The translations under genes and the position numbers were made by a program. The notes under the pieces were generated by a model. It had not been told where the DNA came from and did not search any database. It saw nothing but the letters and a program-made list of their open reading frames with translations. This document shows, piece by piece, positions 2,544 through 54,989 of a stretch of 64,000 nucleotides of DNA (position 1 is its first letter; the number at the start of each line of letters is the position of its first letter). The stretch is taken from the NCBI GenBank assembly GCA_024958715.1, contig JANWUS010000006.1:1-64000 (forward strand), read 5' to 3'. Origin of the DNA: Cyanobium sp. FGCU52. Lineage in GTDB: Bacteria; Cyanobacteriota; Cyanobacteriia; PCC-6307; Cyanobiaceae.

Positions 2544-3560
2544 TCAGGCGAGGCCGGAGAGTTCGAGCAACGCCACCTCCCAGGCCAGGCGCGGCTGAAC
2601 GAAGGCCCGCAGCTGGGAGCGCAGGCGCTCCAGCCGCCGCAGGGGGCCGGGGTCGTGGTCGCGGCGCCAGAGGCTGAGCTGCCACCAGTCGAGCAGCCAC
2701 AGCTGCTGCTCCCCATCCAGTGCGTCCGTGAGATCGCGGGCGAGGGCCAGGGCTTCGAGGGGATCACGGCTGCGGGCGAGCAGGCGCTCGGCCACGCCCG
2801 GCGGCAGGCTGCGCCAGCACTGGCGATGGCGCAGCAGGGCGCCGGGGGAGCCGGCCGCCAGCTCCATCAGTTCGGGGGGCTCAGGGAGGAGTGGGTCCTG
2901 ACCCTGGGGGTCCTGGCCCTCCAGATCCTGCCCCTGGGGATCGGTCTCCTGGGCGGGCGGAAGGCGCTCCAGCACCTGCCGCACCGCTGCGGAGGAGAGA
3001 CGGGCGAAGGGAATCTGCTGGCAGCGGGAGCGGATCGTGCTCAGCAGCTGGGCGGGAGCGGCGCAGATCAGGATCAGCAGGCCGTCGCCCGGTTCCTCCA
3101 GGGTCTTGAGCAGGGCGTTGGCCGCGGCCTCGGCCATCGCCTCCGCCGCCTCGATCACCACCAGGCCGCGCTCGGCCTCCACCGGCCGGCGCCCCAGGAA
3201 GCGGGACACCTCACGCACCTGCTCCAGGCGCAGCTGGGGAGGCGTGCGGCGGCTCACCCCTTCCGCCTCGGCCACCGAGGCCGGCACCAGACGCCCCTGA
3301 TGCTGGTAGGTGGGCTCCACCCAGAGCAGGTCGGGGTGGTTGCCCGCCGCCAGCCGCCGGCGCACCCCCGGGTCGCCGACGAGGGCCCCGTCGTCGGCCA
3401 CCAGCACGCCCTCGAGGAAGCGCAGGGCGGCCAGCCGGCGACCCACACCGTCGGGACCGGCGAACAGGTAGGCCGGGGCCAGCCGGCGGCGGGCCAGGGC
3501 GGCCTCCAGCAGGGCCACCGCCGGCTCCTGGCCGACCAGATCAGCGAACAGCTCAGCCAT
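2544..3560 (-). CDS. holB: DNA polymerase III subunit delta'
   Basis: This is a clamp-loader subunit of 338 residues. It begins MAELFADLVGQEPAVALLEA and has a degenerate P-loop at about residues 35-42 (G-P-D-G-V-G-R-R) in which the Walker lysine is arginine, consistent with a non-hydrolysing delta' subunit. The S-R-C motif occurs in I-R-S-R-C-Q-Q-I-P-F. A Q-D-P/Q-D-L-E-rich linker (E-T-D-P-Q-G-Q-D) is inserted in the C-terminal half. It is the last gene of the block copper ATPase-tmk-holB, overlapping tmk by 8 bases, and converges with rpaA at 8 bases. Confidence 0.92.
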   Translation of the reverse strand: MAELFADLVGQEPAVALLEAALARRRLAPAYLFAGPDGVGRRLAALRFLEGVLVADDGALVGDPGVRRRLAAGNHPDLLWVEPTYQHQGRLVPASVAEAEGVSRRTPPQLRLEQVREVSRFLGRRPVEAERGLVVIEAAEAMAEAAANALLKTLEEPGDGLLILICAAPAQLLSTIRSRCQQIPFARLSSAAVRQVLERLPPAQETDPQGQDLEGQDPQGQDPLLPEPPELMELAAGSPGALLRHRQCWRSLPPGVAERLLARSRDPLEALALARDLTDALDGEQQLWLLDWWQLSLWRRDHDPGPLRRLERLRSQLRAFVQPRLAWEVALLELSGLA

Positions 3561-4215
3561 CGCCGAAGGCAGCCTGCAGAGCGTTCCGGCAGGCCGCGCT
3601 CACCTCGGTGGGCAGCGCGGCGGCGTCGATGCGGATCCACTGCCGCTCCGCGGCCAGCTGGGCGAAGCCGGCGGCCACCCGCGCCAGGAACGCATCGCCG
3701 GCGGCCTCGATCCGGTCCGCCGCCCTGTGGCCGCGCCGGCGGCGGGACTCCGCCAGGGACAGATCCAGCCAGAGGGTGGCATCGGCCCGCAGGCCGTCGG
3801 TGGCGATCACCTCGAGCTGCTCGATCAGGTCCAGGGGCAGGCCGCGGCCATGGCCCTGATAGGCGGCGGTGGAGCCGCTGAAGCGATCGGAGAGCACCCA
3901 GTGGCCGGCCGCCAGGGCCGGCCGGATGCGCTCCTGCACGTGCTGGGCGCGGTCGGCCGCATAGAGCAGCAGCTCGGCGCCGGTGGTGGCCGCCGCCCCC
4001 TCGGGCGGATGCAGCAGCAGCTCCCGCAGGGCGCGGCCCAGGGGCGTGCCCCCCGGTTCGCGGGTACAGAGCAGGCGCGCCCCTTGCGGCATCAGGCCGC
4101 TGGTGGGCAGCCAGGCGGCGAGATCCTGGAGCTGGGTGGTCTTGCCGCAGCCATCGATGCCCTCCAGCACCAGGAAGCGCCCGGGCGAGGCGGCGGAGGG
4201 GGCGGCCGCACTCAA
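3553..4215 (-). CDS. tmk: Thymidylate kinase
   Basis: Converts dTMP to dTDP for DNA synthesis. The 220-residue protein has a P-loop at about residues 18-27 (E-G-I-D-G-C-G-K-T-T), a dTMP-binding S-D-R-F motif followed by S-T-A-A-Y-Q-G, and a C-terminal LID region with R-R-R-R-G-H-R. The start appears to be TTG at 4215-4213, sharing bases with the stop codon of the upstream ATPase (TTGA). This implies translational coupling. holB follows with an 8-base overlap, the usual tmk-holB pairing. Confidence 0.93.
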   Translation of the reverse strand: MSAAAPSAASPGRFLVLEGIDGCGKTTQLQDLAAWLPTSGLMPQGARLLCTREPGGTPLGRALRELLLHPPEGAAATTGAELLLYAADRAQHVQERIRPALAAGHWVLSDRFSGSTAAYQGHGRGLPLDLIEQLEVIATDGLRADATLWLDLSLAESRRRRGHRAADRIEAAGDAFLARVAAGFAQLAAERQWIRIDAAALPTEVSAACRNALQAAFGDG

Positions 4216-51954: not shown

Positions 51955-52686
51955 ATGCCCGCCGACCTGCAGCCGTCCACCGCCGCGGCCGACTGCCCGA
52001 AGGCGGCCGAGAAGGCCGAGGTGAAGGGCTACTTCGAAACCACCGGCTTCGAGCGCTGGAAGCGCATCTACAGCGAGAGCGACGAGGTCAACAACGTTCA
52101 GCGCAATATCCGCATCGGCCACCAGAAGACGGTGGACGAGGTGCTGCGCTGGGTGCAGGAGCAGGGCGACCTGGCCGGCCGCAGCTTCTGCGACGCGGGC
52201 TGCGGTGTGGGCAGTCTGGCGATCCCCCTGGCGGCCATGGGCGCCGGCTCGGTGGAGGCCAGCGACCTCTCGGAAGCGATGGTGAGCGAGGCCGATCGCC
52301 GGGCCCGGGAGGCGGGCATCCCGGCGGAGCGGCTGCGCTTCAGCCCCTCCGATCTGGAAAGCCTTCAGGGACGGTTCGACACCGTGATCTGCCTGGATGT
52401 CTTCATCCACTACCCGCAGCCGGCGGCCGAGGAGATGGTGCGCCACCTGGCGGGCCTGGCCGAGCGCCACCTGATCGTGAGCTTCGCCCCTTACACCCCG
52501 CTACTGGCGATCCTGAAGGGGATCGGCCAGCTGTTCCCAGGCCCCAGCCGCACCACCCGCGCCTACACCCTCCGGGAGGAGGGGATCGTGGCCGCGGCGG
52601 CCGCCTGTGGCTTCCGGCCGGTGCGCCGCAGCCTCAACCAGGCCCCCTTCTACTTCTCCCGCCTGATCGCCTTCGAACGGGGCTGA
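51955..52686 (+). CDS. chlM: Magnesium-protoporphyrin IX methyltransferase
   Basis: Methylates Mg-protoporphyrin IX in chlorophyll synthesis, using SAM. The 243-residue protein reads V-K-G-Y-F-E-T-T-G-F-E-R-W near the start, a signature of ChlM/BchM, then the SAM site F-C-D-A-G-C-G-V-G-S-L and later F-A-P-Y-T-P. It converges with the RluA-like gene, eight bases apart. Confidence 0.95.
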   Translation: MPADLQPSTAAADCPKAAEKAEVKGYFETTGFERWKRIYSESDEVNNVQRNIRIGHQKTVDEVLRWVQEQGDLAGRSFCDAGCGVGSLAIPLAAMGAGSVEASDLSEAMVSEADRRAREAGIPAERLRFSPSDLESLQGRFDTVICLDVFIHYPQPAAEEMVRHLAGLAERHLIVSFAPYTPLLAILKGIGQLFPGPSRTTRAYTLREEGIVAAAAACGFRPVRRSLNQAPFYFSRLIAFERG

Positions 52687-52694
52687 GCGGCCCT

Positions 52695-53696
52695 TCAGCC
52701 ATCCCCGGGCCCCCGCAGCGGCGGCGGCAGCGGCGCCTCCAGCAGCAGCTCCCTCCCATGGGGCAGCGGCAGGCTGAGCCGGTGGGCATGCAGGCGATAG
52801 CCGCCCTCCCCGGGCAGGGCCTCGTCCCGGGCCAGGCCCCCGGGGAGATAGAGCGGATCGCCCAGCAGGGGGGCCCCGAAGGCGGCGGTGTGGATGCGGA
52901 TCTGGTGGGGGCGGCCGCTGGCGATGGCCACCTCCACCAGGGCGCCCTCCGGCCGGGACTCCAGCAGGGTGAGGGTGCTCAGGGCCGGCAGGGCGTACGG
53001 ATCGTCCGGTGCGGCCGCACACCAGAGGCGGCCCAGCAGCGGGTGCGCACGGCGCCCGATCGGCGTGCGGATCCGCACCGCTTCGCCGGGAGCCAGGCGC
53101 AGGTGGGAGGGGAGCGGAGCGGCAAGAGCGCGATACAGCTTGCGGCAGCTCCCCGCGCCCGCGCTGCCGTCGCCGCCGCGGCTCCCGGTGCTCTCGCGCA
53201 GCAGGGCGCTGAGCCAGGCCCGGGAGGCCGGCCGGCGGGCGCAGACCAGCAGACCGGAGGTGAAGCGGCCGAGGCGGTGCACCGGCCGCGGCAGACCTGC
53301 CGGATCACCGGCATGCCGCCGCTCCAGCAGGCGCAGCACGGTGTGCTCCAGCCAGCCGCCGGCGGGCAGGACGGGCAGGCCGGAGGGCTTGGCCAGCACC
53401 AGCAGGTCGCCGTCGTCGTGCAGGGGTTGGGGCAGGGCCGGCACGGCGCCCTCCCGCCAGGGGGGCCGATGCCAGGCCAGGCGATCCCCCGCCGCCAGCA
53501 CCGCGTCCTGCCGCAACGGCCGGCCATTGCGCTCGATCTCGCCGGCCTCCAGACGCCGCAGCCATACCGCCGGCGGCGAATGGTGATAGCGGCTGGCGTA
53601 GAAGACGGTGACCGGCACGCCGCCCGAGGAGGCATCGATGCGGTCGCGGTAGATCCAGCCGCCGTTGAGGGCGGGGGGGAGCCAGCCCTCGGCCAT
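52695..53696 (-). CDS. RluA-family pseudouridine synthase-like protein with altered active site
   Basis: This is a 333-residue protein with an S4-like N-terminal region (R-R-L-E-A-G-E-I-E-R-N-G) and a RluA core. In the usual H-R-L-D-x-x-T-S-G motif the catalytic Asp is Gly: it reads V-H-R-L-G-R-F-T-S-G-L-L-V, with G143 encoded at 53268-53270. The C-terminal G-R-P-H-Q-I-R-I-H motif is intact. Either it is inactive, uses another residue, or belongs to a divergent subfamily. The start is ATG 53696. Confidence 0.85.
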   Translation of the reverse strand: MAEGWLPPALNGGWIYRDRIDASSGGVPVTVFYASRYHHSPPAVWLRRLEAGEIERNGRPLRQDAVLAAGDRLAWHRPPWREGAVPALPQPLHDDGDLLVLAKPSGLPVLPAGGWLEHTVLRLLERRHAGDPAGLPRPVHRLGRFTSGLLVCARRPASRAWLSALLRESTGSRGGDGSAGAGSCRKLYRALAAPLPSHLRLAPGEAVRIRTPIGRRAHPLLGRLWCAAAPDDPYALPALSTLTLLESRPEGALVEVAIASGRPHQIRIHTAAFGAPLLGDPLYLPGGLARDEALPGEGGYRLHAHRLSLPLPHGRELLLEAPLPPPLRGPGDG

Positions 53697-53718: not shown

Positions 53719-54192
53719 TCAGGTGCATCCCTGCACGGAGATGCGGTAACTGAACCCCAGGGCGGCGGGTTGGCTGCTGGAACCCACCCGGAAATTCATC
53801 AGCTTGGTGCGCTTGCCCGGAACGGCAGCAAACGGACCGAACATGCGGCCGCCACCCGGTTCGAAGGTGGGTGTTTCGTTGATCACCTGCAGGCTGGTGC
53901 CATCCGTGAAGCGCATGAAGCCCGCCACCGGGAAAGTGGCACGCTCGCTGGAGGCGGAGGTGAAGAAGAAGCGATAGCTGGTGAAGGGCTGGTCGACGAT
54001 GAAATCGGTGTTCCAGTTGGTTCGGCCCAGCAGGCGATCGGGCCCGATGCGCTTGGAGACCACCGGTTCACCACCGCCGCCGAGGGGCATCAGGAAGCGG
54101 CAGTTCGCCTGGGCCTCAGCCCGGGGTATCCCGATGGCGAACAGGGCAGCGGAGGCAGCAAGGGCTCCGGCGGCGGCAAACCTGATGGCCAT
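53719..54192 (-). CDS. Secreted protein of unknown function
   Basis: This is a 157-residue protein with a signal peptide (residues 1-29, ending A-R-A-E-A-Q-A). The mature part is beta-rich, with two Cys (near the start of the mature chain and at the penultimate residue) that could pair. I do not recognise the family. The ATG shares bases with the stop of the response regulator upstream (TGATG), suggesting coupling. Confidence 0.65.
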   Translation of the reverse strand: MAIRFAAAGALAASAALFAIGIPRAEAQANCRFLMPLGGGGEPVVSKRIGPDRLLGRTNWNTDFIVDQPFTSYRFFFTSASSERATFPVAGFMRFTDGTSLQVINETPTFEPGGGRMFGPFAAVPGKRTKLMNFRVGSSSQPAALGFSYRISVQGCT

Positions 54193-54989
54193 CACTCCAC
54201 CAGCCCGTGCTCGAGGGCGTAGCGCACCAGTTCGGTACGGCTGGAGGTGCCGGTCTTGATGAACAGCCGGCTCACGTACTTCTCCACGTTGCGGATCGAG
54301 GTTTCCAGCCGGCGGGCGATCTCCTTGTTCATCATCCCCTCGGCCACCAGCTGCAGCACCGAGGCCTCGCGGGGGGTGAAGTCGAGCTTGACGTCGGGCG
54401 CCGCCTTCTTGACGCCACCGGTGCCGAGCATCGAGCGGATCTCGGTGATCTGCTTGGCCATCGCCCCGATGTCGGCGTCGGCGAAGCGGGCCGCCTCCGC
54501 CAGCAGCCTCTCCTGGCGACGCACCACGTTGTTGACGCGGGCCACCAGCTCGTCGGGATCGAACGGCTTGGGGATGTAGTCGTCGGCGCCCGCCTGGAAG
54601 CCGGCGATGCGATCGGCTGTCATGCCCTTGGCGGTGAGGAAGATCACCGGCGTGCCCCCCAGCCGCTCATCGGCCCGCAGCCGCTTGAGCAGGCCGTAGC
54701 CGTCGCAGCGGGGCATCATCACGTCGGTGATCACCACATCGGGGATGAGCTCCTGGGCCACCGTCCAGCCCTCCTCGCCGTCGTTGGCGGTGGTGACCAC
54801 GAAGCCCTCGTCCTCGAGGTAGGCCTTTACGGCGGTGCGAAGACCCGGCTCGTCATCCACGAGCAGCAGGCGCACGGGCGGCTTGGGAGCCTCGACGGCC
54901 TCAAGGGCCGCATCGGAGGTGGCCGCTTCGGAGGTGGCCGCATCGGCGGCGGTGGAGCCGGCAGAGCCGGACCCGGGATCGGATGCCAT
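54192..54989 (-). CDS. rre1: NarL/LuxR-type response regulator, Rre1/Ycf29-like
   Basis: This is a 265-residue protein. A low-complexity N-terminus (1-37) precedes a receiver with D45/D46 and phospho-acceptor D89 in V-I-T-D-V-M-M-P, K in I-P-K-P-F and a LuxR HTH (L-T-P-R-E-like F-T-P-R-E-A-S-V-L-Q-L-V then M-N-K-E-I-A-R-R-L). This fits cyanobacterial Rre1 (plastid Ycf29), which controls heat and stress genes with the kinase Hik2 or Hik34; no kinase is nearby. A TAGATT box at 55001-54996 is close to the ATG. Confidence 0.82.
   Translation of the reverse strand: MASDPGSGSAGSTAADAATSEAATSDAALEAVEAPKPPVRLLLVDDEPGLRTAVKAYLEDEGFVVTTANDGEEGWTVAQELIPDVVITDVMMPRCDGYGLLKRLRADERLGGTPVIFLTAKGMTADRIAGFQAGADDYIPKPFDPDELVARVNNVVRRQERLLAEAARFADADIGAMAKQITEIRSMLGTGGVKKAAPDVKLDFTPREASVLQLVAEGMMNKEIARRLETSIRNVEKYVSRLFIKTGTSSRTELVRYALEHGLVE

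Follow-up and report, generated by a model that had tools for sequence, protein, structure and literature searches.

Pseudouridine synthases are described, in the available part of PMC8910892, as sharing a universally conserved catalytic Asp. The roles of the Asp, of a Tyr and of an Arg have been set out for RluB, with remarks on RluA, and the Arg of motif I is assigned a role in base flipping (PMC3919597, available part). Plants and algae carry XXHRLG-type RluAs (AtRLUA7, AT3G52260, and ZmRLUA7) that range from alga to spermatophyte, and the accessible text of the 2022 study describes them as apparently catalytically defective and 'not found in other organisms' (PMC8910892). The same text gives SVR1 and Maa2 as precedents for roles without catalysis, while the need for SVR1 activity is called unclear in what is available of a review (PMC8394491). 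A truB deletion has a co-culture defect that is corrected by TruB in a catalytically inactive form (PMC11301382), mt-LAF3 does not need its catalytic function according to a review (PMC11469412), and RsuA, an S4-domain synthase, prefers an assembly intermediate, with its S4-like domain being of importance (PMC7356742), each as far as the accessible text of these sources goes. In the literature, searched by titles and the beginnings of abstracts, we recognised no description of an HRLG type beyond PMC8910892; the letters HRLG turned up in one other pseudouridine paper, where they belong to an unrelated human sequence.

The window analysed here, a stretch of 64,000 nucleotides from Cyanobium sp. 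FGCU52 (contig JANWUS010000006.1), encodes an RluA-fold protein with Gly in the place of this Asp. On the sequences compared here, the exchange is the defining and selected feature of a bacterial family that is related to the RluA synthases and distinct from them. The gene and its surroundings comprise:

51955..52686, plus strand: chlM, Mg-protoporphyrin IX methyltransferase (TIGR02021, 220.7 bits against a cut-off of 158.9)
52695..53696, minus strand: HRLG-type RluA-fold protein P0001, 333 aa, intact open reading frame
52893..52916, minus strand: motif III, G-R-P-H-Q-I-R-I, Gly261 to Ile268, retained, with Arg267 corresponding to RluA R165
53268..53270, minus strand: GGC codon of Gly143, where RluA synthases have the catalytic Asp
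53451..53453, minus strand: codon of Glu82, in the linker motif R-P-P-W-x-E
53719..54195, minus strand: 158-aa open reading frame between the response regulator and the HRLG gene
54192..54989, minus strand: response regulator with receiver and GerE/LuxR-type domains (PF00072, PF00196), upstream of the HRLG gene

By open reading frame analysis the HRLG gene is uninterrupted from the ATG at 53696 to the stop at 52695. Positions 53262-53281 read TGCACCGCCTCGGCCGCTTC on the minus strand, with the translation V-H-R-L-G-R-F-T-S-G. In an alignment with the E. coli K-12 proteins (NC_000913), the column of Gly143 holds D64 of RluA, D144 of RluC and D139 of RluD, which we take to be the catalytic residues. 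The protein matches Pfam PF00849 (PseudoU_synth_2) with 57.2 bits against a cut-off of 26.8, and this domain is found in 67/67 aligned orthologs at E <= 0.01. Its score against the NCBIfam model TIGR00005 (rluA_subfam), 128.3 bits, falls under the cut-off of 192.7; the model matches all 67 members, the best at E 4.1e-79. The H-R-L-G motif is the one that defines the plant XXHRLG type in the available part of PMC8910892. Because the defining feature of RluA-type membership, the catalytic Asp of H-R-L-D, was tested for and Gly was found instead, we advise against annotating this protein as an active RluA synthase. Its layout comprises a probable S4-like N-terminal part (about residues 14-77) followed by a catalytic-type domain (about 87-331). 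The Pfam search of the window protein found no added domain, and among the 67 members Pfam recognised S4 in only four, with a weak KIX match in one.

Orthologs were found in 68 of 386 genomes of the window's phylum through a protein search and a profile search, with profile scores of at least 386 bits for 67 full-length copies, 232 bits for a split copy (genome G181) and 177.5 bits for the next match. By hand count, 35 of the 58 genomes in the window's own family carry the gene and all 23 without it are of 1.9 Mb or less; in total the profile search did not find the gene in 318 of the 386 genomes, these 23 included. The remaining 33 carriers belong to the same class as the window, and the profile search placed none among the genomes that share only its phylum.

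Relatives were also collected from genome contigs, of which the best 80 of at least 537 encoding stretches were kept as named loci, so that further phyla may be missed. Two of these 80, L125 and L131, come from metagenome-assembled genomes (MAGs) named Gemmatimonadetes and Candidatus Latescibacterota. In both the genes run in the order aldehyde dehydrogenase-like, HRLG, phosphotriesterase-like, topA, and neither has the response regulator or chlM beside the HRLG gene. Their genomes (G386 and G387) fall in one phylum, in which 24 of 64 genomes carry the HRLG family. We call this second phylum Latescibacterota from the name of the L131 MAG alone, and presume that it is not photosynthetic. The profile was run against the 386 genomes of the window's phylum, six genomes behind the loci and the 64 genomes of the phylum of G386. 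A family restricted to cyanobacteria and plants is ruled out by the gene order of L125 and L131 together with the 24 carriers. The initial annotation had suggested that plants share H-R-L-G, which agrees with the available text of PMC8910892, and that some cyanobacteria do so as well; this second suggestion stands for 68 of 386 genomes, but was incomplete in that the second phylum carries the family too. The bacterial members also contradict the clause 'not found in other organisms', as worded in the accessible part of PMC8910892.

Two further loci, L078 and L145, come from MAGs named Bifidobacterium breve and Phycisphaerae, yet their contigs look cyanobacterial, since the response regulator (plus chlM in L078) flanks the HRLG gene; they look like mislabelled or mixed bins. 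Mobile DNA was considered as a source of the gene and rejected: 30 pattern matches in viral contigs included none confirmed as a relative, and the one match of a plasmid search (E limit 1e-10) and the four of a phage search (E limit 1e-5) were all below 32% identity.

Collecting the HRLG members and checking their conservation, a step suggested with the initial annotation, gave Gly at the catalytic column in all 68 cyanobacterial orthologs, which were gathered with no motif requirement, and in all 24 second-phylum members, which were found by profile. It is also present in 80/80 named loci (the best 80 of at least 537 stretches), a sample that is biased because one of the two peptide patterns used for fetching contains the motif. 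Orthologs and named loci together (the latter again the best 80 of at least 537) have Gly in 148/148, with 145 distinct proteins, encoded by GGG in 63, GGA in 33, GGC in 31 and GGT in 21; among the 24 second-phylum members the counts, in the same order, are 11, 6, 4 and 3. With all four GGN codons in use, silent changes must have built up while the Gly stayed. The dN/dS ratio has a median of 0.26 and a range of 0.12-0.49 (Nei-Gojobori, 127 non-independent pairs of 80-97% identity), which shows the family to be under purifying selection. All sets together hold 172 sequences and about 167 after removal of duplicates, which come from two genomes of the second phylum and three cyanobacterial sequences that were each included twice. 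Among the 148, one sequence has Gly for Asp at D280 and one is gapped in motif III.

The copy in G181 (locus L066, positions 2998-3913) is split over two frames at a variable insert, at about query residues 172 to 204, through either a frameshift or a sequence error. Only its first piece entered the Gly count of the 68 orthologs, and it was left out of alignment A1, which holds 67 of the 68 ortholog rows.

An AlphaFold2 model of the window protein, built from 47 sequences, reached a mean pLDDT of 93.5 and a pTM of 0.88; the underlying alignment took in 46 of the 80 named loci (the best 80 of at least 537). With this model as the query, Foldseek returned RluD (2ist, E 2.5e-19), RluD in a pre-50S particle (7bl5) and mt-LAF3 (7aoi and 6yxx), in this order. 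In VIA-align, where rows cover mainly residues 84-331 and the N-terminal part is thus barely included, the closest structure is RluA (2i82, Z 21.0, rmsd 2.6 over 205 residues), with RluC and RluD also close, and the catalytic domain therefore has the expected fold; mt-LAF3 (6yxx) gives Z 18.8 and an rmsd of 14.4 over 280 residues.

The pocket was compared in 55 aligned HRLG rows, made up of 31 of the 68 cyanobacterial orthologs and the 24 second-phylum members. Arg141, Tyr188, Arg262, His264, Gln265 and Arg267 are kept in all 55; by alignment with RluA, Arg141 corresponds to R62, Tyr188 to Y96, Gln265 to Q163 and Arg267 to R165. The initial annotation had reported V-H-R-L-G-R-F-T-S-G instead of H-R-L-D, an intact C-terminal H-Q-I-R and an otherwise intact fold. 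The first is borne out by the minus-strand reading and the E. coli alignment, the second is contained in the kept G-R-P-H-Q-I-R, and the third agrees with the pocket residues, the PF00849 match and the resemblance of the model to RluA.

Moreover, the family has residues of its own that are invariant or nearly so when set against the HRLD rows, namely N11, Y16, H39, W45, R48, R77, W80, E82, P138, G143, R144, K186 and Y300, many of which fall in the N-terminal part and the linker. All 24 second-phylum members keep N11, G13, H39, W45, R77, W80, E82, Y188, R262 and R267, whereas at D280 17 of them have D and seven have E, and P263 is P in 19; of these rows, L202 covers the profile only in part and L184 has one unreadable residue. 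Glu82 is the sole acidic position that is invariant in the 55 aligned rows, and Glu stands there in 148/148 sequences (including the best 80 of at least 537 stretches) and 24/24 second-phylum members.

The paralogs do not share the exchange. Of 24 PF00849 paralogs tried, 22 were aligned (L003 and L005 from the window's own genome, with no match to the HRLG profile, were left out), and these RluA-type proteins of the phylum have Asp in 22/22 rows, as do E. coli RluA, RluC and RluD in 3/3. Identity between the window protein and HRLD paralogs from the same phylum is 25-34%. Two IQ-TREE trees, one with 31 HRLG rows and one with 31 plus 24, split HRLG from HRLD rows at 100/100 support; both drew on 31 of the 68 orthologs from cyanobacteria, and the second was built without EcRluA, EcRluC, par_L002 and par_L173. 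Within the HRLG rows, second-phylum members L179-L181 form a group with the window's own family (nine rows) at 99/100, from which the remaining cyanobacterial sequences are separate. The window protein is 56-59% identical to these three, 40-48% to the 22 cyanobacterial rows outside its own family and 43-67% to the eight inside it. Placement and identities together imply a transfer of the gene between the two phyla, in either direction.

In 30/30 loci of the window's family (L006-L035) the HRLG gene is preceded on its own strand by a GerE-type response regulator, which usually abuts or overlaps it, with a median gap of -4 nt and a largest one of 492 nt; the gaps use the longest open reading frames within 1.5 kb flanks, so overlaps may be overstated. 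It is likewise upstream, on the same strand and within 915 nt, in 70 of 79 named loci (from the best 80 of at least 537), and was not found in 33 loci of other families with flanks of about 3 kb. The 158-aa frame between the two genes has no Pfam or NCBIfam match, and its start looks signal-peptide-like by eye. It is rare in relatives: L006-L035 have it in one locus, that of the window itself, and the 79 named loci (from the best 80 of at least 537) in three, L076, L078 and, partially, L074. On the other side chlM is convergent with the HRLG gene and is not thought to be a functional part of the finding. In other families dnaK, recognised like dnaJ by eye from sequence, adjoins the HRLG gene in eight of 34 loci: the order is dnaK-dnaJ-HRLG in L052, L058 and L062 (one genus), with 0 to 9 nt between dnaJ and HRLG, while in L042-L045 and L050 (another genus) dnaK comes 144 to 682 nt downstream of HRLG. 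Seen in two genera only, this arrangement is weak evidence.

What might such a protein do? The initial annotation had proposed a binding-only protein or a divergent chemistry. We consider it somewhat probable that the HRLG protein belongs to a widespread bacterial family of conserved pseudo-synthases, and that it binds and remodels RNA without pseudouridylation. It would still recognise structured RNA and could flip a base out but not isomerise it; its work would then lie in the binding and remodelling itself, which would make the protein an RNA chaperone or an assembly factor. The target would most likely be rRNA during ribosome assembly and less likely tRNA, a proposal that draws on the RluD-like architecture and on the precedents of TruB, mt-LAF3 and RsuA. 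That the gene was not found in 318 of 386 genomes, including 23 of 58 in the window's own family, weighs against an assembly factor needed everywhere. What speaks against a pseudo-synthase is that a mere loss of catalysis gives no obvious need for an unchanged pocket or for an invariant Glu82.

These same residues lead to the alternative that survives best, though we hold it to be unlikely: a pseudouridine synthase that still works, with Glu82 or some other acid standing in for the Asp. As the only invariant acid of the 55 rows, in a column where Pro stands in 16 of 25 HRLD rows, Glu82 is the obvious candidate for a displaced carboxylate, and Arg267, Tyr188 and Arg141 are kept as though the active site were still used. 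However, Glu82 is not unique to the family, since four of the 25 HRLD rows, including E. coli RluD, have Glu there beside their Asp; the alignment of the linker is uncertain, and Glu82 sits before the catalytic domain. The wider claim, that HRLG proteins are active RNA-modifying enzymes using Glu82 or another group in place of Asp in at least two bacterial phyla, and in plants and algae if these are orthologs, strikes us as improbable. If it were true, the Asp described as universal for pseudouridine synthases would be dispensable.

Rather unlikely, too, is an inactive HRLG protein acting in a complex with an active RluA-type synthase, which it would direct or enhance. The genome of the window encodes four other PF00849 proteins, of which L001 and L002 are alignable as RluA-type with Asp, and a catalytically active partner is named as a possibility in the available part of PMC8910892. 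Yet flanking sequence of 1.5 to 8 kb showed either a response regulator or dnaK/dnaJ as the conserved neighbor. A divergent chemistry, in which the Asp-free pocket performs some other reaction on a flipped base or a free nucleoside, appears very unlikely. It could account for K186 in place of R, P263 for T, S240 for T and Y300 for Q beside conserved RNA-binding residues, their closeness to the pocket being predicted from sequence; but Pfam shows no added domain in the 67 members beyond the few S4 matches and the weak KIX match, and both P263 and D280 vary within the second phylum. Finally, a Gly due to sequencing error or to early pseudogenisation, either of which the initial annotation had named as a refuter (the latter for this strain only), is barely conceivable: the split copy in G181 and the many genomes with no gene would fit, but Gly in every ortholog and second-phylum member, the four codons and the low dN/dS refute it.

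With its fixed Gly and retained pocket, the candidate pseudo-synthase offers a direct test of RNA remodelling versus catalysis in such proteins, and through the bacterial members this question can be addressed in cultured cyanobacteria, with Synechococcus WH7803 (L141) as one carrier. Among known systems, TruB as a tRNA chaperone is a precedent in that its inactive form keeps a cellular role; it differs in belonging to another family, in having an active wild type and in that the inactive form is a laboratory mutant. Trypanosome mt-LAF3 (6yxx, 7aoi) and a Leishmania protein (7am2) present an RluA-type fold within a large-subunit assembly intermediate. Compared with the HRLG model they give Z 18.8-19.4 with an rmsd of 14.3-14.4, so that their domains are placed differently, and these proteins are mitochondrial, longer and only 21-22% identical. 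The plant XXHRLG type has the same Asp-to-Gly swap in H-R-L-D and comprises plant and algal proteins, of 416 and 415 aa in the accessible text of PMC8910892. Closest in structure are E. coli RluD, RluC and RluA, pseudouridine synthases of 23S rRNA and tRNA, with which the HRLG protein has the fold, the pocket residues and an RluD-like two-part architecture in common, and all three of which, unlike HRLG, keep the Asp.
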